Origin: Deltaproteobacteria bacterium
GTDB taxonomy: Bacteria > Desulfobacterota > Desulfobulbia > Desulfobulbales > Desulfurivibrionaceae
Reading direction: 5' to 3'
Assembly: GCA_026388735.1 (NCBI GenBank)
Contig: JAPLJG010000109.1
Span: 26,133-90,132 of the forward strand
Length of the DNA: 64,000 nucleotides
Positions 29,166 through 59,665 of this stretch are shown here, piece by piece. A program made the position numbers and the translations under genes. Every line of letters begins with the position of its first letter. Within the stretch, counting starts at the first letter, position 1. The notes beneath the pieces were generated by a model that ran no database searches, was not told the origin of the DNA, and saw nothing but the letters and a program-made list of their open reading frames with translations.

Positions 29166-29558
29166 ATGGTACGTAAAATCAGCGGAGCCTTCACCGGCGG
29201 AGCCATCGGCGCACTCATCGACAGCGTCAATATCTGGATCTTGGGTCAGGCCGGGATAACGGCCATGCTTGGCATCAGCCTGCGCCCGCAATTCACCGGC
29301 CTCTGGCTCTATCCTCGGCTGGTCTGGGGCGGCATCTGGGCCATGCTGCTGATCCTGCCGTTTTTCCGGCAAAAAACAGCCCTGCGCGGCATCCTCATGA
29401 GCCTGGTTCCCACCACCATGATGCTTGGCATGGTCTTTCCGGAAATGGGCATGGGGCTGCTGGGCCTCAAGGCCGGACTCCTGACCCCGCTTCTCGTGCT
29501 GCTTTTAAATTTCGTGTATGGCATGGTGGCATCTTTTTGGTACAAGAGTTGCGCGTGA
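29166..29558 (+). CDS. Hypothetical membrane protein
   Basis: Hydrophobic ORF starting just after GGAGATTTCCC. Confidence 0.65.
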   Translation: MVRKISGAFTGGAIGALIDSVNIWILGQAGITAMLGISLRPQFTGLWLYPRLVWGGIWAMLLILPFFRQKTALRGILMSLVPTTMMLGMVFPEMGMGLLGLKAGLLTPLLVLLLNFVYGMVASFWYKSCA

Positions 29559-29562
29559 TGAA

Positions 29563-30219
29563 ATGAAGGGAAAAATCTTTGCCATCGGCGACATCCACGG
29601 TTGCGCGGCCAAACTCGAGATTCTGCTAAACCGCCTCCCGTTTGACCGCGAACACGACACCTTGGTCTTTTTAGGCGATTATCTGGATCGCGGCCCTGAT
29701 GTCAAGGGAGTGCTGGACCAGCTCTGCCAACTAAAGGCCGATGGGGTGCGGATTGTCCCGCTCATGGGCAACCACGAGTATTTGCTGCTGGAATACCACC
29801 GAAGCGGCGATCAGACGCTGCTCCCCTATCTGAGACGGCTTGGCATGGAAAACACCCTGGAAAGCTACGGCGGAGCCAGCCTCAGTGCGCTTGCCGCCCT
29901 TGCGTTCATGCCCAGGGAACACCAAGATTTTCTCGCCTCTCTGCTGCCCTATTGGGAAACCGAAGAATATATTTTCGTACACGCCGGGCTGCGTCACGAC
30001 CAACCCTTGGCCGAACAGGACATCTCCGATCTCTGTGAGGTTCGGGAGCCCTTTCTTTCAGAAGAGCGGGACTATGGCAAACGCGTCATCTTCGGCCACA
30101 CCCCATTTGCCACCCCCCTACTCACGCCCTTCCGAACCGGCATCGATACCGGCGCGGCCTACGGCAATCTGCTTACCGCTGTAGAACTGCCGGGACTGCA
30201 CTTCCATCACGCAGCCTGA
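29563..30219 (+). CDS. PPP-type serine/threonine metallophosphatase-like
   Basis: AIGDIHGCAAKL, FLGDYLDRGPD, MGNHEYLLL. Confidence 0.93.
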   Translation: MKGKIFAIGDIHGCAAKLEILLNRLPFDREHDTLVFLGDYLDRGPDVKGVLDQLCQLKADGVRIVPLMGNHEYLLLEYHRSGDQTLLPYLRRLGMENTLESYGGASLSALAALAFMPREHQDFLASLLPYWETEEYIFVHAGLRHDQPLAEQDISDLCEVREPFLSEERDYGKRVIFGHTPFATPLLTPFRTGIDTGAAYGNLLTAVELPGLHFHHAA

Positions 30220-30231
30220 CCGTTCACCAAC

Positions 30232-32811
30232 TCACGGCGTGACCCGGTAATCTCCCTGTAAAAATCGTTGCGCCAAGGTGCGCACCATCTCGTCGGAATC
30301 GAGGCGTGCATCGAGTTGTCGGGTATAGCCGATCAACCGGCCGATCTGTTCGAGGATTCCCTCAATCTCCTCGCTACTCTGACCGGAAAGGCGGCCGACG
30401 AGAAGATCCCCCTTGGCTTTCAAGGCAAAGCCGTACTCAGCCAGAATCTGATCCATAAGGGCAATCCGGCGGGATCGATTGGTGATGGCAGCGGCTCCGC
30501 CCACGAAACGGAAGTAGATATGATTGTTGCGGGGGGTGTCGCTGCAGTAACAATCGAGCATATTAAAGTGATAGCCAAAACGCAGGCTCATGTTCACATA
30601 TACCGCACTCGCCAGAGCAACGTTTTCCAAAACAGCGGCGCCATCGCGGGTAAGATCCTCCGCCCTGGTCATGCCGGAAAGCAGGTCGGCGCCGCGCAGG
30701 GGCACCGCCTCATTCTGCCAGACCCCCGGGGAAAGCATGCCGGAAAGTACCGCCCGCAAAGGTACCGACGCTACCTCGGCAAACCCCATCTCCTTGCCGC
30801 CCCCCTCTCCGGACAAGCCGCCTCCCAGATCAATCACCTTGATCTGAACAGGAATGGGCAAAACAAGCAGATGCAAAGCACTTCGCCTATTGAAAAAACC
30901 ACCTGTCCCCCTTGTCCGCCCGGCATTGGCAACCAGGGTCTGCACCGATTTCTCATGCATGAAACGGACAAGATCATGCACGGTTTTGCATTTTTCCGGG
31001 GCGTATTCCTGCTCAAGGGGATTCACCAGATTGAGCGGCGCAATATAGCGCATTATGTATTTTTGCCGACGAAACTCATAGAGTTCCCGCAGCTTGGCCC
31101 CGGTCAGCCGCTCCTCCCGAAGCAAGCTCTGGACAATCCCTGCATAGACAACCACCTCGCCTCTCTCGCCAGCCTGTAGGGTGATTACCTGACCCTGCTG
31201 GAGGACCTCGGTGGCGGAGCCGGTATTGACCACGGTGGGGATATTGAACTCCCGACAAATCGAGGCCATATGGCTGGTGGGTACACCGATATCGGTGATG
31301 ATGGCGTTTAAGATGGGAATGGCCTGGACAAAATGCGAAGAATCATGCCGGGCGACCAAAATGCTGCCCTTGGGAATATGCTCCAGTTCGTCGATATGGC
31401 GGAGGATAAAAACCTTGCCCGCAGTGATGCCCCGTTGCACCACAATCCCCTTGTTTCGGAGCAGCACCGGATAGCCGGCCTCCACTGCCTCCATCCCCTT
31501 ATCCGAACCGTCAACTGTAGGCTCGTCCATCCGGAGACTCCGGGCCTGGAGGAAGTAGCAGCGGCCGGTGTTGTCCATGGCCCATTCGATATCCTGGGGA
31601 ATCTTGTAGTACCTTTCGATGGCCAAAGCCTGTCTGGCCAGTTCCAGTACCTCCGCTTCGCAGAGACAGGCTTGCCCCCGCAGCGCAACCGGGGTTTCTT
31701 GTGTCTCAACGCCGCTCGCCCCGGAGTTGACCACCATCTGCGCCTTAGAGCCGATGCGTTGCTCGATCAGACGGAGATCTCCCTCCTTGGCCACGGTATA
31801 CAGATCGGCGTCGGTTAAGCCATCTACCACCCCCGGACCCAGTCCCCAAGCAGCGCTGATCGCCATTTGGCTTCGGTCCTTGCCTGCCGCAGCCGTATAG
31901 ATGACCCCGCTTGCGCGCGCTTCGATCATGGCCACACAGCCAACTGCCATCTTCAACTTTCCCAGATCATAGCCAAGTTGGCGCTGGTAGCTCGTAGCGT
32001 TGGCCTGAAAAAGGCTGGCCAGAACCTCTTTATAGGCCCCCTGCACCGCCTCAACGGTACAGGGCACATTGAGTACCGTCTCAAACTGACCGGCAAAGGA
32101 GAAATCGCCGTCCTCCTCGTCGGCACTGCTGCGGACCGCAAGTTTGCCTTCTCTGCCAAGCCGGTGTCGCATCGTTTTTAAAGCAGCGGTGAGCGAAGCG
32201 CTGAAATCCTCGGGAAAGCTGCCGGCGAGGATGGCCGTGCGCAGTTCCTCCAAGGTCTCTTTATCGGCTGAGCCCAGCCCCACGAGCCTTTCTGCCAAGT
32301 CGTTATGGCGGATAAAATCGCTAAAAGCGGCGGTGGTGATGGCGAAGGCCTCAGGTACCCTGAGCTGTAAGATATTTGCCAGTTCGGCCAAATGATAGTT
32401 CTTGCCCCCCACCTCCTCGGCCAAATCCCAGGTAATCTCCGGATAAAATAACACCTGGCCCTGAAACACGGGCTCGCTGCCGGTCAGCATCCGCTGCACC
32501 AAACCGTCGATCCGGGTCAGAATATCCTTGAGTTGGGGATATTGCTGGTCGGTGAGGAGATTAAAATTGCGCAGGGAATCGGAGACAGCGGCAAACAGTA
32601 CATCGTAAGCGCTGCGGGTGTAATTGACGTCAAAGAGATAGTCACCGCCGAGCTTTTCCCCCATCTCGGTCATGGCTTCCAGGGTGCGGTTGTTGCCGTC
32701 AAGCACCGCCTGAAAAGCGCGAAAACGCGTTGCCAGATCGGAGGCAGCACCATGGTCGCGGCCGAGCAGCTCTTGAACCCTGCGGAAAAAAGTGTTTGGC
32801 ATTGTCAGCAA
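30232..32811 (-). CDS. PEP-synthase-like protein 1 (helical N-term, PPDK ATP-grasp, phospho-His domain, novel C-term)
   Basis: KLAVRSSADEEDGDFSFAGQFETVLNV, QDIEWAMD, TDIGVPTSHMASICREFNIP, C-term YHFNMLDCYCSDTPRNNHIYFRFVGG. Confidence 0.88.
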   Translation of the reverse strand: MLTMPNTFFRRVQELLGRDHGAASDLATRFRAFQAVLDGNNRTLEAMTEMGEKLGGDYLFDVNYTRSAYDVLFAAVSDSLRNFNLLTDQQYPQLKDILTRIDGLVQRMLTGSEPVFQGQVLFYPEITWDLAEEVGGKNYHLAELANILQLRVPEAFAITTAAFSDFIRHNDLAERLVGLGSADKETLEELRTAILAGSFPEDFSASLTAALKTMRHRLGREGKLAVRSSADEEDGDFSFAGQFETVLNVPCTVEAVQGAYKEVLASLFQANATSYQRQLGYDLGKLKMAVGCVAMIEARASGVIYTAAAGKDRSQMAISAAWGLGPGVVDGLTDADLYTVAKEGDLRLIEQRIGSKAQMVVNSGASGVETQETPVALRGQACLCEAEVLELARQALAIERYYKIPQDIEWAMDNTGRCYFLQARSLRMDEPTVDGSDKGMEAVEAGYPVLLRNKGIVVQRGITAGKVFILRHIDELEHIPKGSILVARHDSSHFVQAIPILNAIITDIGVPTSHMASICREFNIPTVVNTGSATEVLQQGQVITLQAGERGEVVVYAGIVQSLLREERLTGAKLRELYEFRRQKYIMRYIAPLNLVNPLEQEYAPEKCKTVHDLVRFMHEKSVQTLVANAGRTRGTGGFFNRRSALHLLVLPIPVQIKVIDLGGGLSGEGGGKEMGFAEVASVPLRAVLSGMLSPGVWQNEAVPLRGADLLSGMTRAEDLTRDGAAVLENVALASAVYVNMSLRFGYHFNMLDCYCSDTPRNNHIYFRFVGGAAAITNRSRRIALMDQILAEYGFALKAKGDLLVGRLSGQSSEEIEGILEQIGRLIGYTRQLDARLDSDEMVRTLAQRFLQGDYRVTP

Positions 32812-32838
32812 TTCCGCAGGAGCATTACCTGACCGGGA

Positions 32839-33207
32839 TCATGCCTCTCCCAGGGCTCTTTTAACGGAGGCCTTTAATTCCTTGATCTTGACCGGCTTGG
32901 GGAAAAAATCGTGAACATCGTCCCGCAAAGCCTCGATGGCCACATCCAGGTTGGCGAAGGCGGTGATCATGATCACTTTGATGCCGGGGTACAATTTCTT
33001 GACCGTGCGCAGCACTTCAAGACCATCTATCCCCTTCATCTTCATGTCGGTTACCACCACATCAAACCGCTTTTCCTGCAGCCGTTCCAGAGCAGACTCA
33101 CCGTCCAAAAAGGTTTCCACTTCGTAGCCATCCTGCTCGAAGGAGAGTTTTGCCATATCCCCCACGATCTTCTCATCATCAATGAACATAATGCTATGCT
33201 TCGTCAT
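32839..33207 (-). CDS. Stand-alone receiver (CheY-like)
   Basis: IMFIDDEKIVGDM, VVVTDMKMKGIDGLEVL, IMITAFANLD; no output domain. Confidence 0.93.
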   Translation of the reverse strand: MTKHSIMFIDDEKIVGDMAKLSFEQDGYEVETFLDGESALERLQEKRFDVVVTDMKMKGIDGLEVLRTVKKLYPGIKVIMITAFANLDVAIEALRDDVHDFFPKPVKIKELKASVKRALGEA

Positions 33208-34615
33208 CCGTACACCTCTTTAACTTTTTGCAACTGGGCAGGGTTATAATAAAAGTTGTGCCAATTCCTATCTGACTTGTCACCCGGATGTTCCCCTGGT
33301 GGTTTTTGATAATCCCGTAGCTGACCCACAGGCCGAGGCCGGTGCCGCTATCCCCCTTGGTGGTAAAAAACGGATCAAAGATGTGGTCGAGAAATTCCGG
33401 GGCAATACCTTTACCCTTGTCACCGATCTCGATCTCGATTTCGTCATTATCGGGTAAATAGCGAGAGCCGATGTACAACTCGCCGCCCTTGTCCATGGCC
33501 TGAATGGCGTTGGTGGCCATATTGACCAGCACCTGCTGGATCTGATGCTCGTCGATGTAGATATACGGCAGATCCTCAGCTAAAACGAGCTTGATTTTGA
33601 TATTGGAAATATCGAGCATATTCTGAACCAGAGCAAGGATTTTCTGGATGACCTGATTGGTGGTCGCCTTAGCCAGATGCTGCTCCTTGGGTTTTGCATA
33701 ATCGAGTAGATTGTGGATGATCACCCGCAGACGCTCCACCTCCTCATCGACCCGCTCCATAAACCCTATCCTATCCTCCTTGCCGAGCCCGTCGTACACC
33801 TCCGCATAGGTCTGGGCGAGCATGGAGATATTATTCAGGGGGTTATTGAGCTCATGGGCCACCCCAGCTACCAGGATCCCGATGGAAGCGAGACGTTTTG
33901 ACTGGACAAGTTCCTTTTCACGATTATGGAGTTCGTCGGCCATGACGCTGATGGCGCTGATCACCGCGCCCATTTCGTCATTGGAGGGTTTCTCCTCTAT
34001 TTTCGGGTAGTTGCCTTTGGAAATCGCACGGGTAAGATCAACAACCTTGCGCAACGACTTACCGATATTGCGGACAATGAGATTACTGAAGAGAAAGGCA
34101 AAGAGGACCACCGCCCAAAAAGAATAGAGCAGGATGTTCTTGGAGCGGACAATGATCGCCTCTATCCGATCGCTTTCAAGGGTGGTTATATTCTCAGAAA
34201 AGGTTTTCAGTTTTTGCCCTGCCTCCCGCAGCTTTTTCTGGGCCGCTGCATCCCGATGGCGAGCCGTGCTGATAGATTCAATCAACTGCGTATAGACATG
34301 GAGATTATCTTGGAGTTCAGAGTACTTCTCCGCTCCCACGGCCCGGGTAATATCCCTCCGGACCTGGAGCAGGGTATCGCTGGTCTGGTTGATCCTGCCC
34401 CTGATATTGTCCAGGGCAGTATCATCGCCATAGAGGAAATAATTTTTTTCCGCCAGCCGCATCTCCAGAAAATTAGCATTGAGCCCTTCGGCGATCACGG
34501 TAAAACGAAACTTGGTCAGAATCTCATTGAGATTCTGCAGAGCAAAGATCCCGATCAGGACGATGAGCAGGATATGAACCGCGTTGGAAAGATATATCTT
34601 ATGTTGTATTTTCAT
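33194..34615 (-). CDS. Membrane sensor histidine kinase
   Basis: Two TMs, HAMP-like region, [27 protein letters not shown]. Confidence 0.93.
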
Positions 34616-34621
34616 TGCCTT

Positions 34622-35758
34622 TCACCCCGCCAGTACGGCACTCCGTGTTCTCGGCAGCTCTGCCTGTTCTTTGCGTACCGGCAGATACCAGAGTCCCCCA
34701 TCGATGATCATTAACAAACCGATAATAATCAGGATTGCGTCAAAGAACGTTTTGAGCTCCAGGCCGAAATACCCGATCAAGCCGATCCCGATGCTCATAA
34801 AAGCAACGCCGGTGCGGATGAAGGCCAAGCCGGTCCGCGCCCGGGCGTAGATGTTCCGGTAACAGCCGGCAATGGTGCGTTGGGCGGCAAGGACATTGCG
34901 TTCCCGTGCCAGATGCGTGCGTTCCCGACTGGGGGGTGAAGGGTACAAAATGGTGCAGTAGTTGCCGAGCAGGTCGCCTAGCCGCGCCAGCATGGTTTCC
35001 TTGGTTCGCTTTCCCTGTTCTTCCTGCTTAAGGTTCTGGTAATTTTCCAGAAAACTCAAGGTGGCGCCTGTCACCTCAACCAGGGTCTGATCCCTGGGCG
35101 GACTTAGCCGTGAGCGCCGCACCCGAAGATAGGTGGGCAGGGAGGCGACAAGAAGCAGCAGGCCGGTGGCCAAGGTAACAGAGGCAAGCATGGGATGATC
35201 GGCATATCTTTGGCTGCTCGAAAGGGTCCGAAAGATGGCAACCAGAGCGAGTCCCACCCGGACAAAAGCCAAGGCGGTACGGGCGCGGGCCAGATCTGTT
35301 CGGTAGCAGGCCAACCGGGTCCGCCAATGACCCATGGTATTGCGCCAAAAGGCCAGGCCAGTGCGTTCGGTGCCGATGAGCAGCCCGGGCTTGGCATGAA
35401 GAAAATCCTGAATATACCAGGAGATGTCATCTGGCAGAGCCACTCGAAATTCATAGGGAGCCGACCCAAAAACCCCCTCAACCTCGGAGCGCATGGAAGA
35501 GTCCGATGGGTCGTGGGCGGCAATAACGATGGTGCCGTCACCGTCCTTAATCACCGGAAACCAATCGCTTAAGCCAAGCTGGCTGGCCAACACACCGTTG
35601 AGTAATTCAGGAGGGATGGGAAGACGCTCGTCGTATTCGATGGAAGCCGGCACCCCGCGCAATACCGCAGCTTGAGCTGCTTTAGCAAGCAACCCTGGCC
35701 GGAAGAGAGCAATCCCGGAGAAAGGCTGCATCAATGTCTCTGGATCAAGCTGCATCAT
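34622..35758 (-). CDS. Membrane protein with MshEN-like N-terminal region and two DUF202-like modules
   Basis: RTGLAFWRNTMGHWRTRLACYRTDLARARTALAFVRVG and RTHLARERNVLAAQRTIAGCYRNIYARARTGLAFIRTG; start MMQLDPETL overlapping upstream stop. Confidence 0.75.
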   Translation of the reverse strand: MMQLDPETLMQPFSGIALFRPGLLAKAAQAAVLRGVPASIEYDERLPIPPELLNGVLASQLGLSDWFPVIKDGDGTIVIAAHDPSDSSMRSEVEGVFGSAPYEFRVALPDDISWYIQDFLHAKPGLLIGTERTGLAFWRNTMGHWRTRLACYRTDLARARTALAFVRVGLALVAIFRTLSSSQRYADHPMLASVTLATGLLLLVASLPTYLRVRRSRLSPPRDQTLVEVTGATLSFLENYQNLKQEEQGKRTKETMLARLGDLLGNYCTILYPSPPSRERTHLARERNVLAAQRTIAGCYRNIYARARTGLAFIRTGVAFMSIGIGLIGYFGLELKTFFDAILIIIGLLMIIDGGLWYLPVRKEQAELPRTRSAVLAG

Positions 35759-37286
35759 TGCTGAACACCACGGTTTTCCAAAATCGGGCAGGCTTGCCGT
35801 AATCGGGAAGAGTAATTTCCATATCACCGTAACAATAGGGAAACTGACGGCGCGTCCGCTCGGCCGGAATACTCCAGACAAAGCCGTCTCCCACAAGAAA
35901 GAGGCCTGACACTATCATTAGGTAGTTGAAAACCTCCCAGCCAATCCCACCGCTATCGTTAAAGAAAAACACAAAGACCAACCCGATGGAAAAGAGGCTG
36001 AGCCCGGTGCGGACAAAGGCAAAACCGGTACGAGATCGAGCCATGACCGTACGCAAACGGGCCATGACATTGCGGCGCTCGGCCAGTACGGTCCGCTCCA
36101 AGGCAACCCCTGTGGTCGCCCAGATTCCTGGAGCATGGGAGCTTTTCACCGGCAGGGTCATGGAGTTTGTGACAACACCCGGCATGGCATGGCTGTGGGG
36201 GAAAAAGTTATCCCAGATGGTGGGCATGCCGGTTTTTTGCCGCACCGACTTCTGCCCTTCCACCCCGGCCCGCCGGCCGCGCAAATACCAGAAAAAACCT
36301 TCCAGGGCCATAACCGTACCGATGACGATGAGGCCAAGATCCAAGGCCAGCCAGCGACTCGCCTGAAATTGACGCAACAGACCAAGACCGAGGCTGATAA
36401 AAGCAAAGCCGGTGCGAGTAAACGCCAGGCCAGTTCGGACCTTGGCCATCCTGGTTCTAAAACAGGCAAGCACCGTCCGCTCTTCGGCCAGATCGGTCCG
36501 ATCGCTAGCCAAATAACGCCGCCGCATCACCGGCGACAGAGCGGTCCAGCCTTGCCGTTGCGCTTCGGCTCCTGGCACCACCTGGCTGCGGCGAAACTCC
36601 GGGGCAATGTACTCGTTATATGCCTCGAGCACGCTGGTTCCACCGGTGGCGCCGGTATCGACGCAGGGAGGAAGCGTGGCGTAAATCGCTCGGGCCGGCA
36701 GATACCATTTGAGGCCGTCAAAGACCACGATGAACCCGCTTATCAAAAGGGGTATCTCCAAAAGCAGGTAATACCCGGCGCCAGCCAAACGGAGAAAGAG
36801 CAGCGCAATGGTGACAAAGGAAAGACCGGTCCGAATAAAAGCCAGGCCGGTACGGCTCTTAGCCAGCAGAGTCCGGTAATGGGCAAACAGGGAACGACGC
36901 CCTGCCAGATAGGTACGGACCTTGGCCAGGGGGGTTCGCCCGGCAGTGGGCGGAAAGCCAGGGTTGAGATCCTGATTATGCTCGAAAATCCGAGTGAGAT
37001 CGTCGGGCAGGGTGACCTGAAACTCAACTTCCTGCACACCAAGAATCTTGCGGACCTTGTCGGCCAAAGCAGGACTGGGTGCGGTGGCAACCACAGTTGC
37101 CCGGCCATCGGTGACAATCCGCGGAAACCAGCCTTCCATCCGGAGCTGGACCATATCCAGTTTCCATAAGAGCAACTGGGGGCCAGTCACCGACTCCTGA
37201 TACTCCACCCACGGGCAGCCATGCCGATCACCAAGCGCCGACAAGGCCTGAAATTTCTCTAATCCTAAGCTCATCCCATTGCTCAT
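35745..37286 (-). CDS. Membrane protein with three DUF202-like modules
   Basis: Three copies of the RTxxAxx heptad array followed by TM helices. Confidence 0.78.
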   Translation of the reverse strand: MSNGMSLGLEKFQALSALGDRHGCPWVEYQESVTGPQLLLWKLDMVQLRMEGWFPRIVTDGRATVVATAPSPALADKVRKILGVQEVEFQVTLPDDLTRIFEHNQDLNPGFPPTAGRTPLAKVRTYLAGRRSLFAHYRTLLAKSRTGLAFIRTGLSFVTIALLFLRLAGAGYYLLLEIPLLISGFIVVFDGLKWYLPARAIYATLPPCVDTGATGGTSVLEAYNEYIAPEFRRSQVVPGAEAQRQGWTALSPVMRRRYLASDRTDLAEERTVLACFRTRMAKVRTGLAFTRTGFAFISLGLGLLRQFQASRWLALDLGLIVIGTVMALEGFFWYLRGRRAGVEGQKSVRQKTGMPTIWDNFFPHSHAMPGVVTNSMTLPVKSSHAPGIWATTGVALERTVLAERRNVMARLRTVMARSRTGFAFVRTGLSLFSIGLVFVFFFNDSGGIGWEVFNYLMIVSGLFLVGDGFVWSIPAERTRRQFPYCYGDMEITLPDYGKPARFWKTVVFSNDAA

Positions 37287-39901
37287 GTGGCGGCCTGCGC
37301 GACTTTTTCGATATTCATCAAACCGGAGAGAGCATAATCCCCCTCCATAAAGGCACGAGCCACGGCGGGAATCATCGCGTCATCGCCCATGGCTGCGTCC
37401 AGCAGCCGGGTAAAGCCCAAAATCCTGCCGACCATCACCAGTTTGTCCTCGATGGCCTCCCTGGCTGCCCCCTGTAGCGAGGCGTTGACCAGATCCTCCC
37501 TGACATCAACGGAAAAACCATACTGTTCAAAGATCTCCCCGATGCACAGGGCGCGCCGCCGCCGCCGTTCAAGACTGGTGCCGCCGCCCTTAAAGCGGAA
37601 TTTGAGATGGTTGCTGCGCGGCTCTAAGGATGCCACGGCGTCGATCATGATGAAGTGAAAATCCATGCGGGCGTTCATGTTGCAGTAGTCGCGGCTGACC
37701 ATGGCGTAATTGGGCATGCCGATGGGTCGCTCCGACTTCTGATCGGTGATAAAAGAGGACATCACCGAACCCATGGGCGTTCCGCCAGGCGGCGGCCCCC
37801 AATGCAGGCCAGGGGTAGTAATCCCCTGCCACAGCGCCTGAAAGGGCCGGGAGATTACCGATTCCGGCGGAATTCTGCGCCGTAACGGCCCGGCCAACGC
37901 CAAGCCCCCGCCCATGTCGATGACACTAACCAAAAAAGGCACCGGTGAGTCGATGGCATGCACAATGCCGAGGTTTTCTTCCAGCATCTCGTCTCCGGCA
38001 TGGAACATGGACAGCACCGCCTTTTCGTGGACAAAGCGGACGATATCGTGGAGCGAGGTGCATTCGACAATGGAGAAAGTGGGGCCGTAGGCGTCTGTGA
38101 GATGCAGCACCGTAACCAGCTCCTGCAACTCACGGTGCAGGGGAGGCAGAGGCACGCGCAGCATACGGACCGCAGGCGGGCCAGACTTCCAGGCCTTTTC
38201 CGTGATGCCGATCTCTTCGGCGCTGGCCGCAAACACCCTGCCGTGGCTGCCGTCCACCGTGATCCACTGCCCGTCTTGCAAAATACTGGATGCATCGTGC
38301 AAGCCACAGACCATGGGCGTTTCCTGTTCTCTGGCTACGCAGGCCAAATGATCGGCCGGGCTACCCAACTCCACCAATACTGCCGCAACTTGGCCCAAGA
38401 GGTTGGCCGCTTCGACAAAGCTCTGCTGCATGACCAGCACCACAGGTTCGCTGGGAATATTTTCAAAATCCTTCCTACCTTTCACCACCAGTACCCGCCC
38501 GGTGGCTCGTCCTCCTGAGGCGATTATCCCGTGAGCCAGAACCGGGGAATGCCCCTGCCATCCGTCCGTGGCCTGGATGCCCATGGAGGTCATGGGCCGC
38601 ACCTGGAGAATGACCACCGCTCCCGCGCGGTCCACCGCCCATTCCAGATCCAGAGGCATACCCTCGCGCCTTTCCAACTCCCTGCCCCAACCGGCCAAGG
38701 ACTGCAGTTCCGCCTCACTGAGCACCGGCTGCTGACGGGCCTCCGGGGCAAGCTCACGCCAAGCCACCCCGCCCGTCTCCTCGCAGACGAGGAATCTCTC
38801 TTTGCTGGCAATGGTGGAACGCGGCCAGTCCACCCTGCCATCCGCTCCGACCAGATAGAGATCCGCGGCAACGCTGCCGGAGACCGCAGCCTCACCAAGG
38901 CCGGGCACCGCACTGACCAGCATCAACCCGCTTTCCGGCTCCTGGGGAGAGCGGGTCAATAGAACGCCTGCGGCACGGGCCTCCACCATCTCCAGACAAA
39001 GAACAGCCATATCAAAGCGCAGGGGGTCCAACCCGGCGTTAAGCCGGTAGGCCAGACTGCGGGGGTTGAAATTGCTGGCCACCACCACCTTGAACGCCTC
39101 CAGAAACTGCGCCTCATCGCGGACATTGAGCACCGAGCTGAATTGCCCGGCAAAGGAATGATGGCTGCCATCCTCGCTGATGCTGCTGCTGCGCACCGCC
39201 AGGGTTTTGCCTTTTTTGAAAAAAGCCCGGGCTGCAGCGATGATTTCCTCAGCCAGGGCCGAAGGAATCACCGCCCCGGTGATCAAACCCTTCACCTGGG
39301 CGGCGGTGGCGGCGGAGACATGTTTTTCCTTGTCCGCGCCGTGGCTGGCAAGAAGATGGACCAATTCGAGTGAGAGTCCTGTATGTTCGAGAAAAAAACG
39401 ACAACCGGCCAGGGTAATCACAAAGCCATCCGGCGTCGGCAGGGCATTCTTGCGCAAATCTGCCAGGGCTGCCGCCTTGTTGCCGGTTTGTCCCTTAAGA
39501 CCTCCGTGAATCTGGCCAAGCGGCAGCACACAAGGAAGATGTTCGGATGAGGAAAAACGGGCAAGCGTATCCGTAATGCGTTGGGCTATTGCCTGATGGG
39601 CGACCAGCAGCCCTCTGTACCGACTGTTGGCCAGAGTTTCCAGCCGGGCGATCATCTCGGCGGTTTCTTCGATGAGCCGGTGAACCAACTGGGCAAGGCC
39701 TGCCGGATCACCCTGCATCCGCAGGTGGATGCTGATTTCCGTTAGGCAATCCACGGCTCGATTGTTGCTGGCCAGAAGAGAGCGGAACACATGGTAGCGG
39801 GCCTTGATCAACTGCTGCGAATCGGTCTTCCGTTGCTGACGGGCCTCCCGGAATCTGCCAAGCTGCTTGCCGAACTGTTGGCTGAGCCAGCGCCGCATCA
39901 T
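37283..39901 (-). CDS. PEP-synthase-like protein 2
   Basis: LAVRSSSISEDGSHHSFAGQFSSVLNV, DLEWAVD, VELGSPADHLACVAREQETP; start MMRRWLSQQF overlaps upstream stop (ATGATGA). Confidence 0.85.
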   Translation of the reverse strand: MMRRWLSQQFGKQLGRFREARQQRKTDSQQLIKARYHVFRSLLASNNRAVDCLTEISIHLRMQGDPAGLAQLVHRLIEETAEMIARLETLANSRYRGLLVAHQAIAQRITDTLARFSSSEHLPCVLPLGQIHGGLKGQTGNKAAALADLRKNALPTPDGFVITLAGCRFFLEHTGLSLELVHLLASHGADKEKHVSAATAAQVKGLITGAVIPSALAEEIIAAARAFFKKGKTLAVRSSSISEDGSHHSFAGQFSSVLNVRDEAQFLEAFKVVVASNFNPRSLAYRLNAGLDPLRFDMAVLCLEMVEARAAGVLLTRSPQEPESGLMLVSAVPGLGEAAVSGSVAADLYLVGADGRVDWPRSTIASKERFLVCEETGGVAWRELAPEARQQPVLSEAELQSLAGWGRELERREGMPLDLEWAVDRAGAVVILQVRPMTSMGIQATDGWQGHSPVLAHGIIASGGRATGRVLVVKGRKDFENIPSEPVVLVMQQSFVEAANLLGQVAAVLVELGSPADHLACVAREQETPMVCGLHDASSILQDGQWITVDGSHGRVFAASAEEIGITEKAWKSGPPAVRMLRVPLPPLHRELQELVTVLHLTDAYGPTFSIVECTSLHDIVRFVHEKAVLSMFHAGDEMLEENLGIVHAIDSPVPFLVSVIDMGGGLALAGPLRRRIPPESVISRPFQALWQGITTPGLHWGPPPGGTPMGSVMSSFITDQKSERPIGMPNYAMVSRDYCNMNARMDFHFIMIDAVASLEPRSNHLKFRFKGGGTSLERRRRRALCIGEIFEQYGFSVDVREDLVNASLQGAAREAIEDKLVMVGRILGFTRLLDAAMGDDAMIPAVARAFMEGDYALSGLMNIEKVAQAAT

Positions 39902-42444
39902 CCATCCACTCCGGCTTGTTCCTGCTTGATGCTTACGAGAAAACGCTGAAAGAACTCCTCGATGGCCGCCTCGTCGCGCATCCGCACATCGAGTTGGCGG
40001 GTGAAGGAAATCAGCTCGCCCAGTCGGCCCAATACCCGCTCCATTCTCGGAATGTCGAGATTTCTGGCCTTGGCAATCACCAGGTCGCCGGTGCGCTCCA
40101 CCTTGAAATAGAGGCCTGAGAGAATGGCGCTGATCAAGCGGGCCCGCCACTCACGCTTGGCCTTTTCGGCCATCCCTCCGGCAAAGCGGAAATAGATGTA
40201 GTTGTTATCCGGGTCCGGCGACATGTAAGCATCCACCACGTTCAGGTGGTAGCCCAGGCGCAGACAGAGGTTGCAATAGTGTTCGGCAATGATCCCCAGG
40301 TTGTCCCCCGGATAGGCTGGCCCGGTGAGCAGGGCCAGCGGCTTGCTGATCCCGGAAAGGATATCCCTAAACCCCAGCGATGCAGGCTCCTTACCCCCTT
40401 GGTCATCCTTGAGAAAGCCTTGGAGAATAGCGTTGAGCGGTCTGCTGTTCAGCATCTCCATGCTGATTTCGCCCTTTTGGGGGGCCTCAGGCCTGATTCC
40501 CGCACCCAGGTCGATGACCCGCAACTTAAGAGGGATCGGCAAGCGCACCGACCGACTCAGCTCTTCCTGGGAGCCGCTCTGGTCGGCATGGAAATGGATC
40601 AGGGCGTCAATCGCCTTTTCGTGGGCAAAACGGAGGATGTCATGAAAGGTGCTACAGTTTTCCGCCTTGAACCCAGCGGAGGTTGGATCAGCCAGGGTGA
40701 TGGGCGCTACCCAACGCAAAATACGGCGCAAAATCCGCAACTCCTGGGAGGAGCGGTAGTCATCCTCTTCCGAGACCTGCAACTGGACCAGACCCTCGAT
40801 GATCCCCTGGTAGACCTGCTTGTTTTCCACGTCCACCGTGACCTCCGCCCCATCCGCAAGGAGGCGTAGGGCGTCACCGGTTCCGAACAGGGCCGGGGTC
40901 CGGTATTCACGGGCAATGGTGGCCAGATGCCCGGTGGGGCCGCCGATTTCGGTAATCATTGCGGCGGCCCGCCAGACAATGGGGCTTAGTTGCGGGCTGG
41001 GGAAGCGGGCCACGGCGATGGCGCCCACTGGGAACTGCTCCGAATCGGTGTTCTGGTCCACATGCACCACTCGGCCTGCGGCAATGCCAAGATTGGCAAC
41101 CTGTCCTTTCCCCGACATGAGCGGGATGGCGGCGGCCAACTCGGCGGCCAGCTCGCCGGGAAGCGGCGGCGGCTTGGCCGGCAGGGACAGAGGGCGGCTC
41201 TGCAAGATCACCGGCTCGTCTCCCAAGGCCCACTCGATATCCTGGGGTTCGCCAAAGGTCTTTTCCAACAGCAGAGCCTGCTCGGCAAGCTTGGCCAGCT
41301 CCTTGGGCATTAACGTCGCAGAGCCGCGCCGTAGACCGCTAGGCAACTGGTCGAACGGTTCTCTGGTGGAGGGAAATGAATCCGGCACAACGATCTCGCT
41401 GGTCAGCGGGGTAAAAGGCCAAGCCCGACTCATGACGAAGCGGTCTGCCTGTCTGCGGCCAGACACCAGGTCGTGGGCCGCACCGCGCAGGGAAGTGATG
41501 AGCAGCTGGTTCTTCTCTGGGGATTCTGGATCGCGGCTGTACGTCACCCCGGCAACCCGAGATTGGATCATCGGTTGCACCCCCGCAGCCATTGGAATCT
41601 CCCGACTGCTTGCCTTTGGCCCAAGATACTCCAGGGCCGCGACTGAAAAGCGAGAACCGATCACCTGCCGGTAAGCGTCGAGCACCGAGGACAACTCGGG
41701 CCGCACCTCAAGCACCGAGTGAAACTGCCCGGCAAAACTGCGGGTTTCGGCATCCTCGCCCACCCCGCTTGAACGGACCGCCAAGGGCACCGGCCCGCCT
41801 GCCCGCTTGAGCAGTTGCGCCAGCTCGTCTTGCACCGCCGTCACAAGTTGTTCCGGAAAACGGGCCTGATCGAGCAGACGACTGATGCCCTCCGCACGAT
41901 CCCGACTGGAGCCAGGCCCGGCACAGATGGCATCGATGGCGACAAAAAGGGTGTTTGCCTCCATGAATTCGCGGTAAGCAGCAGCGGTGATGGCAAAACC
42001 GTCCGGAGTCCGCAGGTGCAGACGGTTGCGGATCTCGCTCAAGGTGGCATTTTTGGCCCCCACCAGTTCCTCGAAATCGCTATCGATCAGATCATAGGCC
42101 AGGGTGAAATTGCGGTCGTACGGCCCGGCATATTCCAGGGCCAGCCCGGAAAGTTTTCCGGCAATCTCCTCGTAGCGGTCATACAGGTCGAGGTAACGGT
42201 TGCTGGTCAGGCTGCCCAGGCAGGAGACCACCTCCCGCACCAGCTCGTTCAACGCACCCACGGCTTCGCTTAAAAATTTTCGATCAAAGACATATTCTCC
42301 GGCCAGGGCCCCTTCCATGCGGCCGATCTTTTCCAACACCGCGTTGTTCAAGAAAAGCAGCCGACGGAACAACCGAAAGGAGGCGGCAAACGAGGACGGT
42401 TCGTCCTTTGCCGCGCGGTAGAATGGATTAGGGGGTAAATGCAT
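39898..42444 (-). CDS. PEP-synthase-like protein 3
   Basis: LAVRSSGVGEDAETRSFAGQFHSVLEV, TEIGGPTGHLATIAREYRTP, YHLNVVDAYMSPDPDNNYIYFRFAGG. Confidence 0.87.
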   Translation of the reverse strand: MHLPPNPFYRAAKDEPSSFAASFRLFRRLLFLNNAVLEKIGRMEGALAGEYVFDRKFLSEAVGALNELVREVVSCLGSLTSNRYLDLYDRYEEIAGKLSGLALEYAGPYDRNFTLAYDLIDSDFEELVGAKNATLSEIRNRLHLRTPDGFAITAAAYREFMEANTLFVAIDAICAGPGSSRDRAEGISRLLDQARFPEQLVTAVQDELAQLLKRAGGPVPLAVRSSGVGEDAETRSFAGQFHSVLEVRPELSSVLDAYRQVIGSRFSVAALEYLGPKASSREIPMAAGVQPMIQSRVAGVTYSRDPESPEKNQLLITSLRGAAHDLVSGRRQADRFVMSRAWPFTPLTSEIVVPDSFPSTREPFDQLPSGLRRGSATLMPKELAKLAEQALLLEKTFGEPQDIEWALGDEPVILQSRPLSLPAKPPPLPGELAAELAAAIPLMSGKGQVANLGIAAGRVVHVDQNTDSEQFPVGAIAVARFPSPQLSPIVWRAAAMITEIGGPTGHLATIAREYRTPALFGTGDALRLLADGAEVTVDVENKQVYQGIIEGLVQLQVSEEDDYRSSQELRILRRILRWVAPITLADPTSAGFKAENCSTFHDILRFAHEKAIDALIHFHADQSGSQEELSRSVRLPIPLKLRVIDLGAGIRPEAPQKGEISMEMLNSRPLNAILQGFLKDDQGGKEPASLGFRDILSGISKPLALLTGPAYPGDNLGIIAEHYCNLCLRLGYHLNVVDAYMSPDPDNNYIYFRFAGGMAEKAKREWRARLISAILSGLYFKVERTGDLVIAKARNLDIPRMERVLGRLGELISFTRQLDVRMRDEAAIEEFFQRFLVSIKQEQAGVDG

Positions 42445-42445
42445 C

Positions 42446-43948
42446 TCAGGCGTTCCTGAACAGACGGGGGAAGGTGATCGTGAAGGTTGTGCCCCTGCCC
42501 GGTTCGCTTACCACCTCGATGTCGCCGCTGTGGTCCTTGACAATGGCGTAGCTCAAGGAAAGGCCAAGGCCGGTCCCCTCATTTTTGGTGGTAAAAAATG
42601 GATCGAAGATATGGGTCAGGGCTTCGGATGTGATCCCTGCCCCGGTGTCGCTGACCACGATCCGCGCCTCTTTGCCCTGGCCACTCACGGCGAGATCAAG
42701 ACGACCATCCGGCTGCATGGCCTGAACCGCGTTGAGCATCAAATTGACCAGCACCTGCTGCAACTGGTTGGGATTGCCGCTGATCAGCACCGGCTGATCG
42801 GGATGGTCGTAGCGGTAGATGATCCCCCCAAGGCGAAATTGATTCTTCACCAGGGTAATGGAATTCTCCATCAGCACCACCAGGTTCACGGGTTCCATGA
42901 TATTGGACTTGCGGGTCCGGGAAAACTCAAGCAGATGGTGCACCACCTCCCTGGCCCGGTCCGACTGGACCAGGATATCGCGCACCATGTCCATCCGTTC
43001 GCTGCACGCCAGGTTGGGAAGATCCTCCAGCAGCACCTCGGCGGTGAGCGAGATATTGTTCAGCGGGTTGTTGATCTCGTGGGCGATACCCGCCGTCACC
43101 TTGCCGATGGCCGCGAGCTTTTCCGACTGCACCAGCTGGTTTTGTTTAGCATTGAGGGCCTGGAGCATGAGATTCAAGGAATTGACCAGCTCTATTCCTT
43201 CCACCGAACAAAGAACCTCATCACTTATCGGAATGGAGTTCATCTCTCCCTGCATGATCCTGGCCGAAGCCTCGCGGATAGCCTTGAGGGGCAGCATGAT
43301 CCAGCGCATCATATACAGAATCAGCACAGCACCAAGCCCCACCGCCAGAGCGAGAATAAACACCGCAGTCTTCTGGTAACCCGCAACTTGGCGTTCCACC
43401 CGAACCCTCGCCCTGGCGTCCATATCAAAGATACTCTTGGTGATATCCTGGCCGTGTTTGCGCAGGGCATTTTCCAGGGCTTGCTTGTTTCGTGGATTCA
43501 GATCGTCTTGCAAAAGCTGGCGGGAAATGGCCTCATACTGGCCAAGTTCCTTGTCATACAGGGATTCCAGCTCACTTTTATTTTCAAGGAGAACCGCCTT
43601 CACCGCTGCAATGGAGGCCCGGACCTGGTCCACATAATCAAGGGCGTTCAGCAGATCTTTTCGGTCATTGAACAGAAAATAATTCTTCTCATAGCGCCTG
43701 ATTTCGAGCACCTTCTGGTTCAACTCGTAAAACGATTCGATGATCCGAATTTTATCTTCCATGCGCCAGAGGGCAAAGGTGGCAGTAGCGATGGCTATCA
43801 TGCTCAGGCCCGCGACAATGCCGATCATAACCAGGAGCTTTCCCCGAATGGAACGGATTCCCGGAAAAAGAAACCGGCAAGGCGGCGAACCGTGTGCGCC
43901 TTTCGCTGTTGCCTGCGTCGTTTGGGGCGTAGGAAGGTTTGGGCTCAT
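42446..43948 (-). CDS. Membrane sensor histidine kinase
   Basis: [40 protein letters not shown]. Confidence 0.93.
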   Translation of the reverse strand: MSPNLPTPQTTQATAKGAHGSPPCRFLFPGIRSIRGKLLVMIGIVAGLSMIAIATATFALWRMEDKIRIIESFYELNQKVLEIRRYEKNYFLFNDRKDLLNALDYVDQVRASIAAVKAVLLENKSELESLYDKELGQYEAISRQLLQDDLNPRNKQALENALRKHGQDITKSIFDMDARARVRVERQVAGYQKTAVFILALAVGLGAVLILYMMRWIMLPLKAIREASARIMQGEMNSIPISDEVLCSVEGIELVNSLNLMLQALNAKQNQLVQSEKLAAIGKVTAGIAHEINNPLNNISLTAEVLLEDLPNLACSERMDMVRDILVQSDRAREVVHHLLEFSRTRKSNIMEPVNLVVLMENSITLVKNQFRLGGIIYRYDHPDQPVLISGNPNQLQQVLVNLMLNAVQAMQPDGRLDLAVSGQGKEARIVVSDTGAGITSEALTHIFDPFFTTKNEGTGLGLSLSYAIVKDHSGDIEVVSEPGRGTTFTITFPRLFRNA

Positions 43949-44331
43949 TCTTTCGCTCGATCAGGTTCCATGGCTCGATAAATGACCTGTTTCAATTCGT
44001 CCAGCCGGAAAGGCTTGGCCAGAAAGGCGAAAACCCCTTCCTGTTGCGCCAGTTCCGCAGTATCCGGCGAGGCGTAGCCGGTGATGATGATCACCCGGGT
44101 CTGAGGGTTCATGGCCCGAACCCTTTTGAGCACCTCGATGCCGTCAATCCCCTCCATCTTAAGATCGGTCACCACGATGTCAAAGGGTTTTTCCGCCATG
44201 GCCGCAAGGGCTGCGGCAGAATCGGTATAGGTCTCGATCTCAAAGCCGATCTTGCCGAATACCTGTTTGAGCCGCTTGCCAACAATGGGTTCGTCATCCA
44301 CCACCAGCAGTCGTATGTTTGTTTCGCTCAT
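43945..44331 (-). CDS. Stand-alone receiver (CheY-like)
   Basis: RLLVVDDEPIVGKRL, VVTDLKMEGIDGIEVL; start MSETNIRL. Confidence 0.92.
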   Translation of the reverse strand: MSETNIRLLVVDDEPIVGKRLKQVFGKIGFEIETYTDSAAALAAMAEKPFDIVVTDLKMEGIDGIEVLKRVRAMNPQTRVIIITGYASPDTAELAQQEGVFAFLAKPFRLDELKQVIYRAMEPDRAKE

Positions 44332-44350
44332 TGCACCTTCCTCCCTGCTA

Positions 44351-46939
44351 TCAGTTACCGGCAACAATGCCGTAATCGCCCATGAGAAACGCCTCGGCAT
44401 ACCGAGCCACAGCCTGGTCGTCCGTCATCTGCACATCCAACTGTCTGGTGAAGCCGATCAGGCGGCCAAGGATATCCAAGGTGCGCTCCATTTCCGGCTG
44501 TGAAAGATTACTGGTCCGGGCGATGACCAGATCCCCCTTGGTCTGGATGCTGAAATCAAACGCCTCCAAGATGGTGGCGATGAGGGTCGCCCGCCGGGAA
44601 CGCTTGGCAATATCCGTGGCCCCGCCCAAAAAGCGGAAATAAATATGATTGTCGCGCTCCACGTCGTGACAGAAGGCGTCGATGATATTGAAATGATACC
44701 CGAAGCGAAAGCACAGGTTCACATAGGTTTCGCTGATGATGGCGATGTTGTGCCCGGTATACTGCCCGGAAAGGGTGTCCTGCGGGGTGGTCATCATGCT
44801 GTGCATCATGTCGCGGAAGCTCACCGACATGGCCTCCTGATGCCAAGCACCGGGGAACATCATGCCCTGGAGGATGGCCCGGAAGGGAATCGAGCGGATG
44901 GCAGAAAATGGTATTTGGTCTCGCGGGGCGTCCGGGGCAATGCCGCCGCCGATGTCAATGGCAAGGATACCTGCCTGAATGGGCAGGTCCAGCCGTCTTG
45001 CCAGGCCGCCTGGCAGACAGCGGTCATCCCGGCCCAGCTCCACCAGATGAAGCACTGCGGTTTCATGGATGAAGCGCAGTACGTCGTGGAAGGTTCGGCA
45101 CCCTTCGGGTCTAAATTCCTGCATCAGCGGATCAACCAGATTCAACCGGGAAACCTCCCGAAGAATGCGGCGCAGCATGCGAAACTCCGGAGCCATGTGC
45201 AGGTCCATGGTGGTGGTGGCCTGATAGGTGAGAAGTTCCACTACCCTGCCCCGGTAAATCCGACGGTCCTCGGCGTCCACGGTTATTTCCTCGCCGGGAA
45301 CTACCTTGACCATGATGTCTGGAACCACGACCAAGCAAGGAACCCGCAACTCACGGCACAATGTGGCCATGTGGCTCGCCGGGGTGCCAACCTCGGTGAC
45401 AATGGCTGCAGCCCGGTGCATGACCTGGACAAATTGAGAGGAATCGCGGTGGCTTATAAGTACCGCACCCTCGGGAAAATCCTTGAGATCGGCCAGGGTT
45501 TCGACCCAAAAGGCCGGACCAGCGCCGATGCCCTGCTGGGCCACCCGTCCTGCATCCACCGCGATAAGTTCATAGCCTTCGAGTTTTTCGGAAAGCTTCG
45601 GTTTTCCCCTTTCGCTCTCCGTGATCAACAAAGGTCTGGACTGTAGGATATAGAGAGCGCCCTGGGGGTCTAAAGTCCATTCGATGTCCTGGGGCCGTTT
45701 GAAAAATGTTTCCAGATGAAGAGCGATTCCGGCAAGTTGCAAAAGGGTCTGCTCGTCAAGACAGGGGGCCTCGACCTGCCCGTTCGGCACCACTCGCATC
45801 GCCAGCCCGCCATCGGCCATCCCTGTCGAGCGCAGGGCTTCATGTTTTGCTGCGATTACCCGCTCAATGATCTGCGGCGGCTCAGCCTTGCTGAGCCGGA
45901 AAAAATCCGTGGGCACCTGTCCCTCGACCACCGCCTGCCCCTGTCCCAGGGCGCCGACCGCGACCATGCTCTGCGAACCGGGCTCCATGGGATCAATGGA
46001 ATAGATAATCCCGCTGGCTTGCGCCCGGATCATGCGCTGGCAGCAAGCAGCAATGGACATGGGACTGCCTTCGGGGAAGACCTGCCGCCGATAGCGGATA
46101 GCCTTGGCGCCAAAGAGACTGGCCGCCACCTGCAGATAGGCGCGATACACCGCCTCGGCCTGCGGAGGAACCTGCAATTCGGAATGAAACTGTCCGGCAA
46201 AAGAGAAATCCATGTCCTCTTCCTGGGCACTGCTGCGGACCGCGAGAAAAAGCGGGGGTTCGCTGCTGGCCGCAAGCCTGGTAATGGACTCGGTCAGGGT
46301 CTCAAGAAAACCGGATGGCGGCTCAGCGCGCAGCACCTTTTCCTGGAGAATACGACGCAACGCCTCAAGCCCTTCCTCGTCGGGAAGATGCTCGGAAAGC
46401 AGCAGATCAAACCGATCAAACTCCGGCCTTAGCCCGTTCAAATCAAGCAGATCGTGAAACAACCGGGTGGTGATGACAAACCCTTCCGGCACCCTAACCT
46501 TGGGATTATGGAGTAGCTCGGAAAGATGCGCCGCCTTGCCGCCAACCAGGGGCCAGTGCCTGGTCTCAACCTCGGCAAGCCAAAGCAAGGGGGGGCCTTC
46601 CCGGTCATCCCGTTTGTTGAGGATCGCCCGGACCCGGGCCTCCATGGGGGTAAATACCTCATGCAGCGCCACACATTTGTTTTGGGTCAGGATGTTGATT
46701 GCGGTAAGGGCACGACGCATGGCGGCGATCATCTCCTCAACCGTGGCTTCCACATAGCGGAGATCAAAAAGATACTCGCCGCTCAGTTTCTCCCCCATGT
46801 CGGCGATGAGTTCCAGGGCCTGGTTGTTTGCCTTGAGCACTTCGCGGAACTGGGAGAATATCAAGGGCAGAGGCCGACAGGCCTTGGGCGTGAACCAGCG
46901 TGGGGCGGAGAAACCTTTCAGGAGATCACGGAGAGCCAT
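44351..46939 (-). CDS. PEP-synthase-like protein 4
   Basis: LAVRSSAQEEDMDFSFAGQFHSELQV, TEVGTPASHMATLCRELRVP, YHFNIIDAFCHDVERDNHIYFRFLGG. Confidence 0.88.
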   Translation of the reverse strand: MALRDLLKGFSAPRWFTPKACRPLPLIFSQFREVLKANNQALELIADMGEKLSGEYLFDLRYVEATVEEMIAAMRRALTAINILTQNKCVALHEVFTPMEARVRAILNKRDDREGPPLLWLAEVETRHWPLVGGKAAHLSELLHNPKVRVPEGFVITTRLFHDLLDLNGLRPEFDRFDLLLSEHLPDEEGLEALRRILQEKVLRAEPPSGFLETLTESITRLAASSEPPLFLAVRSSAQEEDMDFSFAGQFHSELQVPPQAEAVYRAYLQVAASLFGAKAIRYRRQVFPEGSPMSIAACCQRMIRAQASGIIYSIDPMEPGSQSMVAVGALGQGQAVVEGQVPTDFFRLSKAEPPQIIERVIAAKHEALRSTGMADGGLAMRVVPNGQVEAPCLDEQTLLQLAGIALHLETFFKRPQDIEWTLDPQGALYILQSRPLLITESERGKPKLSEKLEGYELIAVDAGRVAQQGIGAGPAFWVETLADLKDFPEGAVLISHRDSSQFVQVMHRAAAIVTEVGTPASHMATLCRELRVPCLVVVPDIMVKVVPGEEITVDAEDRRIYRGRVVELLTYQATTTMDLHMAPEFRMLRRILREVSRLNLVDPLMQEFRPEGCRTFHDVLRFIHETAVLHLVELGRDDRCLPGGLARRLDLPIQAGILAIDIGGGIAPDAPRDQIPFSAIRSIPFRAILQGMMFPGAWHQEAMSVSFRDMMHSMMTTPQDTLSGQYTGHNIAIISETYVNLCFRFGYHFNIIDAFCHDVERDNHIYFRFLGGATDIAKRSRRATLIATILEAFDFSIQTKGDLVIARTSNLSQPEMERTLDILGRLIGFTRQLDVQMTDDQAVARYAEAFLMGDYGIVAGN

Positions 46940-47029: not shown

Positions 47030-47824
47030 TCAGTGGCTGCCGCCACCTTTTTTGAAGATGGCACCCACGGCCAAGCCCGCGAGCAAGGCGATGACTACCG
47101 CCATTATGCCATACAATCCAGCCTGATCAAAGGCCATTTTTGACAGGGCCGCAACCATCCCGGTACTCTTGACCTCAAGATGGGTCGAGGCACGATCAAC
47201 CACCTTGCCATCCCTGACCGCAAGCACATCCACGGTGTAGATGCCAGGAGGTGCCTGATACGGCCAGGCAACGTCCACTTTGTACGTGTTACCAGCCTCG
47301 CCATGCGTCCGGACAACGGTCCCTTCCTGCATGTCGTAAACATTTTCCTGTTTCTTGAACTTAAGATATTCGTCGAACCATTTTCCGTCCGCAGGATTCC
47401 CGGCGCTGTCTTCAATCCGGATGTGTCCACGCAGGGCGTCAAAGCCAAGCAGATTCTTGTTGAGTTCTGCCGCGTCCAGTATCCGACTCAAGTCGGCAGT
47501 GCTGTGCAACAAATACACACGGGGCGCATCCTTGAACTCAAGGGAGCCTTTTTTCATCCAGACCAAACCACCGACCTTTTCCTTGTACTTAAGAGCAGTA
47601 TCAACCGGTTCGCTGGTGATGGTGACAACCAGATCATCGGTGCTCGCGCTCTGACCGGTGATGGAGAGCTGGGCTCCATGATAGGTGAAGGTTATGGGAA
47701 TATTGTCCGGGGTGACCGAGCAGGTAAGTGCTTGGGCCGCAGGGACAGGCAGGATGGCAAGGCCAAGCAGAACAAAGGCCGCCACGGCAAGATACCGGGG
47801 AGAATTCATAAGGGTGCGTTTCAT
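47030..47824 (-). CDS. TIGR02186-like exported/TM protein
   Basis: Signal peptide, beta-rich domain, C-terminal TM; adjacent to TSUP transporter as typical. Confidence 0.65.
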   Translation of the reverse strand: MKRTLMNSPRYLAVAAFVLLGLAILPVPAAQALTCSVTPDNIPITFTYHGAQLSITGQSASTDDLVVTITSEPVDTALKYKEKVGGLVWMKKGSLEFKDAPRVYLLHSTADLSRILDAAELNKNLLGFDALRGHIRIEDSAGNPADGKWFDEYLKFKKQENVYDMQEGTVVRTHGEAGNTYKVDVAWPYQAPPGIYTVDVLAVRDGKVVDRASTHLEVKSTGMVAALSKMAFDQAGLYGIMAVVIALLAGLAVGAIFKKGGGSH

Positions 47825-47825
47825 C

Positions 47826-48755
47826 TTAGTGGCCTCCCGCATAGGAAAGAAGAATGGAAGGCTCCATCACCAGCTCAAGAACAATCTTGACGGTAACCGC
47901 AAGTACGATGATGGAAAGCAGAATTTTCAGCTGGTCGCCATGGAGCTTGCGCCCCAGAACGGTACCGATCTGCGCGCCAAACACCGAACCAATCAGGAGA
48001 AGCAAGGCCAGCATGAAATCAACGGTATGGTTGGAGTAGGCTTGGAGATAGGTAACCTCGATGCAGGTGAAGAGGATCTGAAAGAGGCTGGTGCCAACCA
48101 CGACATGCATGGGCATCCGCAGCATGTAGATCATCACCGGCACCATGAGAAAACCGCCGCCGACCCCCATGATTGCGGCAAGGACCCCGACAAAGGTGCC
48201 AAGGAAAAGCGGAACCAGGGCAGAGTGGGTGACTCCGGATTTCTCGAAGTAGGTCTGCATGGGCAGGGCCGCGAAAAAACCGCCCTTCTTTTGTTTCGGC
48301 GCGGCAGTCGGTGCGGCTGCGGCCGGAGCCTTCTTGCTTTTGTGCATGGCGTTGAGACTTTCAACGAACATAAAGCTGCCGACCAGACCCAGCATGACCA
48401 CATAGGTCATCTTGATAAGGAAATCCGCGCCGCCGGAGGCACGCAGAATCTTGATCACCTGTACCCCCGCCGCTCCGCCGGCAAAACCGCCGATCAGGAG
48501 ATAAAGGCCCATCTTGAAATCCACGTTGCCGAGGCGCCAGTGGGAAATGGTTCCGGAAGCGGAAGCCGCCACGATCTGGTTGGCATCCGTTGCCGCCGCG
48601 ATTGTCGGCGGAATGCCGATCATCATCAGAAGCGGGGTCATGAGAAACCCACCGCCCACACCAAAGAGGCCGGACAACAGGCCGACTCCAAGTCCCAGGC
48701 CCATTACCACCAGATAATTCACGCTGGTGAGGGCTATTGGCAGATACATGTACAT
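47826..48755 (-). CDS. TSUP (TauE/SafE) family transporter
   Basis: GLLSGLFGVGGGFLMTPLLMMIGIPPTIAAATDANQI and second repeat GVLAAIMGVGGGFLMVPVMIYML. Confidence 0.9.
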   Translation of the reverse strand: MYMYLPIALTSVNYLVVMGLGLGVGLLSGLFGVGGGFLMTPLLMMIGIPPTIAAATDANQIVAASASGTISHWRLGNVDFKMGLYLLIGGFAGGAAGVQVIKILRASGGADFLIKMTYVVMLGLVGSFMFVESLNAMHKSKKAPAAAAPTAAPKQKKGGFFAALPMQTYFEKSGVTHSALVPLFLGTFVGVLAAIMGVGGGFLMVPVMIYMLRMPMHVVVGTSLFQILFTCIEVTYLQAYSNHTVDFMLALLLLIGSVFGAQIGTVLGRKLHGDQLKILLSIIVLAVTVKIVLELVMEPSILLSYAGGH

Positions 48756-59634: not shown

Positions 59635-59665
59635 CCGACCCTCACTCCCTTCACAGGAAAACACC

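Follow-up and report, generated by a model that had tools for sequence, protein, structure and literature searches.

A family of PEP-synthase-like proteins with a new C-terminal domain, found almost exclusively alongside dissimilatory sulfite reductase

The window, the whole stretch of 64,000 nucleotides of desulfobulbial DNA analysed here, contains four paralogous genes, A to D, whose products resemble PEP synthase over part of their length. All four lie on the minus strand and have intact ORFs: A at 30232–32811 (likely ATG start 32802), B at 37283–39901 (872 aa from the likely start at 39901; the mechanical ORF start is 40150), C at 39898–42444 and D at 44351–46939. Pairwise identity among them is 29–39%. 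In Pfam searches, all four matched PF01326 (PPDK_N; E 4.5e-56 to 1.3e-74) and PF00391 (the PEP-utilisers mobile domain; E 2.1e-14 to 5e-17), and the first ~115 and last ~290 residues gave no credible match. Each protein consists of a helical N-terminal part, an ATP-grasp domain, a central swivel domain carrying the His (within residues 472–637 depending on the protein) and a C-terminal domain of ~290 aa; in D, the His is H523 and the C-terminal domain spans about residues 574–862. The helical part, common to A–D, is an extra ~115 aa relative to PpsA, and no PDB relative of it was found. The swivel His lies in TSHMA in A, ADHLA in B, TGHLA in C and ASHMA in D, and these motifs, like those of the ATP-grasp domain, are where an earlier note on this DNA had quoted them; its description of four PEP-synthase-like paralogues also holds.

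We compared the family with the canonical PpsA encoded in the same genome (contig C115), which matches the TIM-barrel family PF02896 with E 7.5e-57. Neither A–D nor a fifth family member of this genome (contig C80) matched PF02896 in Pfam. A profile of 79 homologues, less than 80% identical to one another, aligned with this PpsA at Prob 100 over D residues 114–567, ending where the swivel domain ends (~573); the C-terminal profile alone aligned with the canonical barrel in hhalign at Prob 0.1. The full-length AlphaFold model (pLDDT 89, pTM 0.84) has an alpha/beta C-terminal domain and not a barrel, and the isolated domain was modelled with pLDDT 83. These results bear out the statement of the earlier note that the C-terminus lacks a PEP-binding TIM barrel. 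That A–D are ordinary but diverged PEP synthases, as the Prob 100 alignment of the ATP-grasp and swivel domains would allow, is scarcely credible given the missing PF02896 match, the last 290 aa that do not align to the barrel, the separate canonical PpsA, the alpha/beta model, and NCBIfam scores of 284 bits or less against a PEP_synth (TIGR01418) cut-off of 739.75, with the best alignment running to ~566 of A. For the fold, this explanation was rejected on the profile tests and the AlphaFold structure.

When the C-terminal model was compared with the PDB and BFVD by Foldseek, there was no match with E <= 1e-3; nothing fell below E 0.02, and TM-scores were low. Arginine kinase, RecJ and AlaRS C-Ala appeared there as weak listings and were taken as noise rather than as fold relatives. 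For this domain, scattered weak matches were all that came from Pfam searches with the 79 members and from a profile search of the PDB, and no credible match was found in NCBIfam or among PDB sequences. The full-length model matched RPH (best), PEP synthase and PPDK via its ATP-grasp and swivel domains, and the whole-chain alignments to RPH, with an rmsd of about 18 Å, were not read as likeness of the C-terminal domain. The PDB sequence relatives of A were PEP synthases, RPH and HpeI, with pyruvate kinase for the swivel domain, and in every case the best-scoring stretch lay within the ATP-grasp or swivel part. What follows the swivel in A–D is a new conserved domain, not a PEP-binding TIM barrel.

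We checked 17 residues of the ATP-grasp and swivel domains, among them K135, R235, E420, Q433, R435 and the swivel His, H523, and found each of them to be the same in A–D, the fifth copy and canonical PpsA. The best reading of these sequences is that A–D are catalytically competent ATP-to-His phosphotransferases. In the C-terminal domain, the 79 homologues share an invariant set (H618, D619, R622, H625, E626, D662, H749, D754, N764, R769, G772, G773 and R783) that includes the motif HDxxRFxHE and is mostly missing from canonical PpsA; the fifth copy deviates from it at two positions (D754E and R769Q). Nearly all of the C-terminal blocks quoted in the earlier note are strongly conserved in these homologues, far beyond chance. 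We infer from its many acid, amide, His and Arg side chains that the set may bind a metal and an anion. The combination proposed in that note, a phospho-His dikinase-type module with a C-terminal domain predicted not to bind PEP, is upheld by the profile, family and structure tests.

By analogy of mechanism, A–D would belong with the PpsA/PPDK/RPH dikinases, although they fit the definition of none of these. With PpsA (PF01326-PF00391-PF02896) they share the ATP-grasp domain, the central phospho-His swivel, the domain order up to ~573 and the catalytic positions checked, but in place of the barrel they have an unrelated alpha/beta domain, and they carry the N-terminal helices in addition. In NCBIfam, scores were about 50 bits or less for pyruvate phosphate dikinase (TIGR01828, cut-off 843.45) and 205 bits or less for rifampin phosphotransferase (NF041857, cut-off 999). 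RPH (5hv1, 5fbs) resembles A–D in its ATP-grasp domain, its swivel His and an acceptor other than pyruvate; its order is ATP-grasp, RIF-binding domain and C-terminal His (PMC4844700), whereas in A–D the His is central and the predicted acceptor domain comes last. No PDB match with E <= 1e-3 revealed a RIF-binding fold in the C-terminal model, in a library that holds RPH entries. The analogy with RPH drawn in the earlier note holds for the mechanism, but not for the domain order or for the acceptor domain, which has no credible similarity to the RIF-binding one. HpeHI, CreHI and phenylphosphate synthase PpsAB, small-molecule dikinases that appear to share the mechanistic type, are split on two polypeptides and have an RPH-like acceptor domain, whereas A–D are single chains with a different one. 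Glucan, water dikinase also combines an ATP-grasp and a His domain and has an acceptor other than pyruvate. Several Nitrospirota copies of 1060–1100 aa end in an additional lectin-like stretch, with a weak match to PF21708 (E about 0.002), which recalls that enzyme only faintly. The authors of the RPH work described a large, largely unexplored group of dikinases. The mechanism class of the present family is already known, but our searches of libraries and papers turned up no family with this acceptor domain, domain order and operon, a combination that appears to be new. Nor did they reveal an assigned function, which by the earlier note would have refuted its reading, and our search of the freely accessible literature found no paper naming the family.

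In PpsA, PPDK and RPH, the swivel domain shuttles between the ATP site and the acceptor site, and the acceptor is held by the third domain (PMC4844700, PMC12167813). Because of the analogy with this shuttling, we propose a path from ATP to His to an acceptor at the C-terminal domain, in which the swivel His (H523 in D) would receive phosphate from ATP at the ATP-grasp domain and, as the swivel moves, would deliver it to an acceptor sitting on the new alpha/beta domain. Autophosphorylation on His is very likely, and it is quite likely that the phosphate then passes to whatever the C-terminal domain binds. The acceptor would most probably be a small anionic metabolite other than pyruvate, and the context points to a sulfur-related one; we give a small molecule rather than a protein about an even chance.

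The context is an operon on the minus strand, which the earlier note had overlooked, as it had the fifth copy and the gene for a receiver of 122 aa. The first gene encodes a universal-stress-protein-like small protein (48768–49325; assigned by position and conservation, the name being tentative and Pfam giving no match), and it is followed by genes for a TauE/SafE (TSUP) membrane transporter (47826–48755; PF01925, E 4e-49; usually 60–99% identical in homologous loci), an Alph_Pro_TM membrane protein (47030–47842; PF09608, E 2.5e-51), D, its cognate CheY-like single-domain receiver (43945–44400; PF00072), the membrane histidine kinase HK1 (42446–43948; HisKA and HATPase_c), C and B. Then come two membrane proteins recognised by domain search, MshEN with three DUF202 stretches (35745–37286) and MshEN with two (34622–35896; start uncertain), the membrane histidine kinase HK2 (33194–34615; HAMP, domain search), the 122-aa CheY-like single-domain receiver, an open frame at about 32839–33207 that has the same place in homologous loci, and A. 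A contig scan found 256 relatives; the best 80 were fetched and come from Desulfurivibrionaceae/Desulfobulbia, Thermodesulfobacteria, Candidatus Desulfofervidaceae and Nitrospirota. The conserved order in the fetched loci, kept with rearrangements and losses, is usp-like gene, TauE/TSUP, PF09608, dikinase, CheY-like receiver, histidine kinase and further dikinases, then the MshEN/DUF202 pair, second kinase, second receiver and dikinase. Forty loci are 18 kb or longer; in 35 of these there is a TauE gene with 60% or more identity to that of the window, and 35 contain a PF09608-type gene.

A putative sigma-54 -24/-12 element, TGGCACGCTAAATGCT (49372–49387, minus strand, 1 mismatch), lies upstream of the usp-like gene, and a sigma-54-dependent response regulator (receiver, AAA and Fis HTH; PF00072/PF00158/PF02954) is encoded at 49580–51034, also on the minus strand, with a homologue near the dikinase in most loci. 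Within the window, 1-mismatch matches to the motif are overall no commoner than chance. Across homologous loci, an element with at most 1 mismatch precedes the first gene in 22 of 50, versus 0.18 expected from shuffles, mostly 60–85 nt ahead of that gene; the motif is absent from most TauE-first loci, and none was found upstream of those of the Nitrospirota type. These sequences suggest that the operon often stands behind a sigma-54 promoter. The DVU2957-2964 operon of D. vulgaris, with TSUP DVU2958 and sigma-54 activator DVU2956 (PMC4641369, PMC5840216), is similar to the window operon in outline.

Of the dikinase genes, 108 could be scored for their neighbours: 57 have a single-domain receiver gene beside them on the same strand, 57 have a paralogue beside them and 3 have neither. 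The receiver of D conserves DD, the phospho-acceptor D79, T107 and K129 in 82 homologues, and the type of receiver and kinase that goes with D-type enzymes differs from the one that goes with A-type enzymes. This arrangement speaks for a protein acceptor, with the swivel phospho-His giving phosphate to, or taking it from, the adjacent CheY-like receiver and the dikinase serving as an ATP-charged two-component input. We consider that rather unlikely, since each cluster already contains histidine kinases able to phosphorylate the receiver, several paralogues (B and C) have no directly adjacent receiver, and the invariant polar set of the C-terminal domain would fit a substrate pocket and be superfluous for simple His-to-Asp transfer. 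A swivel-His enzyme that phosphorylates, or is discharged by, CheY-like receivers would be a new kind of phosphodonor linking sulfur respiration to anion export, which we regard as distinctly improbable.

The location of these genes among sensor kinases, receivers and sigma-54 activators, together with four or five paralogues per genome that resemble sensory diversification, could also mean that the C-terminal domain senses a sulfur anion or some other cue and thereby controls the ATP-grasp/His module, which would then function as an ATP/AMP/Pi switch or a receiver output and phosphorylate no bound substrate. This is unlikely in that every copy checked retains all catalytic residues and the third domain is the one that holds the acceptor in the known enzymes (PMC4844700, PMC12167813). 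We hold it on balance probable that A–D are ATP-dependent phosphohistidine phosphotransferases of the PEP-synthase/PPDK/RPH type with a new acceptor domain and with two-component and TSUP-exporter partners. As the enzymatic part of a sigma-54-driven operon, they would be controlled by its membrane sensor kinases and CheY-like receivers, so that their activity would keep pace with a TSUP-family exporter in bacteria that carry out dissimilatory sulfur metabolism. A functional tie to sulfur anion handling is likely; the term sulfur anion rests on context, because the substrate specificity of TSUP proteins is not predictable from sequence (PMC5840216).

We next turn to the distribution of the family. 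The C-terminal domain occurs in 146 of 395 genomes whose phylum we read as Desulfobacterota and in 55 of 198 Nitrospirota genomes, mostly in an ORF of about 830–970 aa together with the ATP-grasp part. With dsrA defined by a strong match (E < 1e-100; split genes counted for Nitrospirota), 190 of the 395 Desulfobacterota genomes carry dsrA (188 above the curated cut-off), as do 139 of the 146 that contain the family; of the seven exceptions, five are genomes with a completeness of 62–80%. In Nitrospirota, dsrA is present in 49 of 55 family-positive genomes versus 87 of 198 overall. The Fisher odds ratios for family versus dsrA, uncorrected for shared ancestry, are 77 (Desulfobacterota) and 23 (Nitrospirota). 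The family thus occurs almost exclusively where dissimilatory sulfite reductase is encoded too, and because 51 dsrA-positive Desulfobacterota genomes lack it, it is accessory and not part of the core pathway. PF09608 was found in 73 Desulfobacterota genomes, 72 of which also have the dikinase domain. The neighbours of the long Nitrospirota variants differ, which, like the missing sigma-54 motif at TauE-first loci of the Nitrospirota type, we count against the favoured explanation.

Each of the four paralogues groups with relatives from other loci in a separate clade of 27–42 members. The four-fold set is thus ancient and has been retained, a pattern that speaks for different roles. The fifth copy represents a second cluster type (L116 6746–11890), in which it is accompanied by another TauE-type gene (437 aa) and by genes for a membrane protein of 233 aa, a receiver and a Cache histidine kinase; this copy and one Nitrospirota relative lie near other TauE genes, kinases and receivers.

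These proteins form a large family, with a domain undescribed in the libraries searched, that is present in about a third of the sampled Desulfobacterota genomes and tracks dissimilatory sulfite reductase. It would give the dikinase superfamily one more kind of acceptor domain, and it points to a phosphorylation step that would be linked to a TSUP-type exporter and be under the control of a two-component system. Annotations as "PEP synthase" in sulfur bacteria may be wrong and call for caution.

Several minor observations concern the surroundings. A link to anti-phage defence was sought, and PADLOC gave no match. Long Nitrospirota members (e.g. L118 6797–9985 and L120 7026–10286) have gene surroundings without the TauE-PF09608 pair. 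The MshEN/DUF202 membrane pair (window 34622–37286) accompanies the operon as far as Nitrospirota; c-di-GMP is the ligand of MshEN domains in other proteins. A calcineurin-like phosphoesterase gene (window 29518–30219) is convergent with A, an arrangement kept in related genomes. At window 59420–63639, an ADP-forming acyl-CoA synthetase-like gene adjoins an acetyl-CoA hydrolase/transferase-GNAT fusion.
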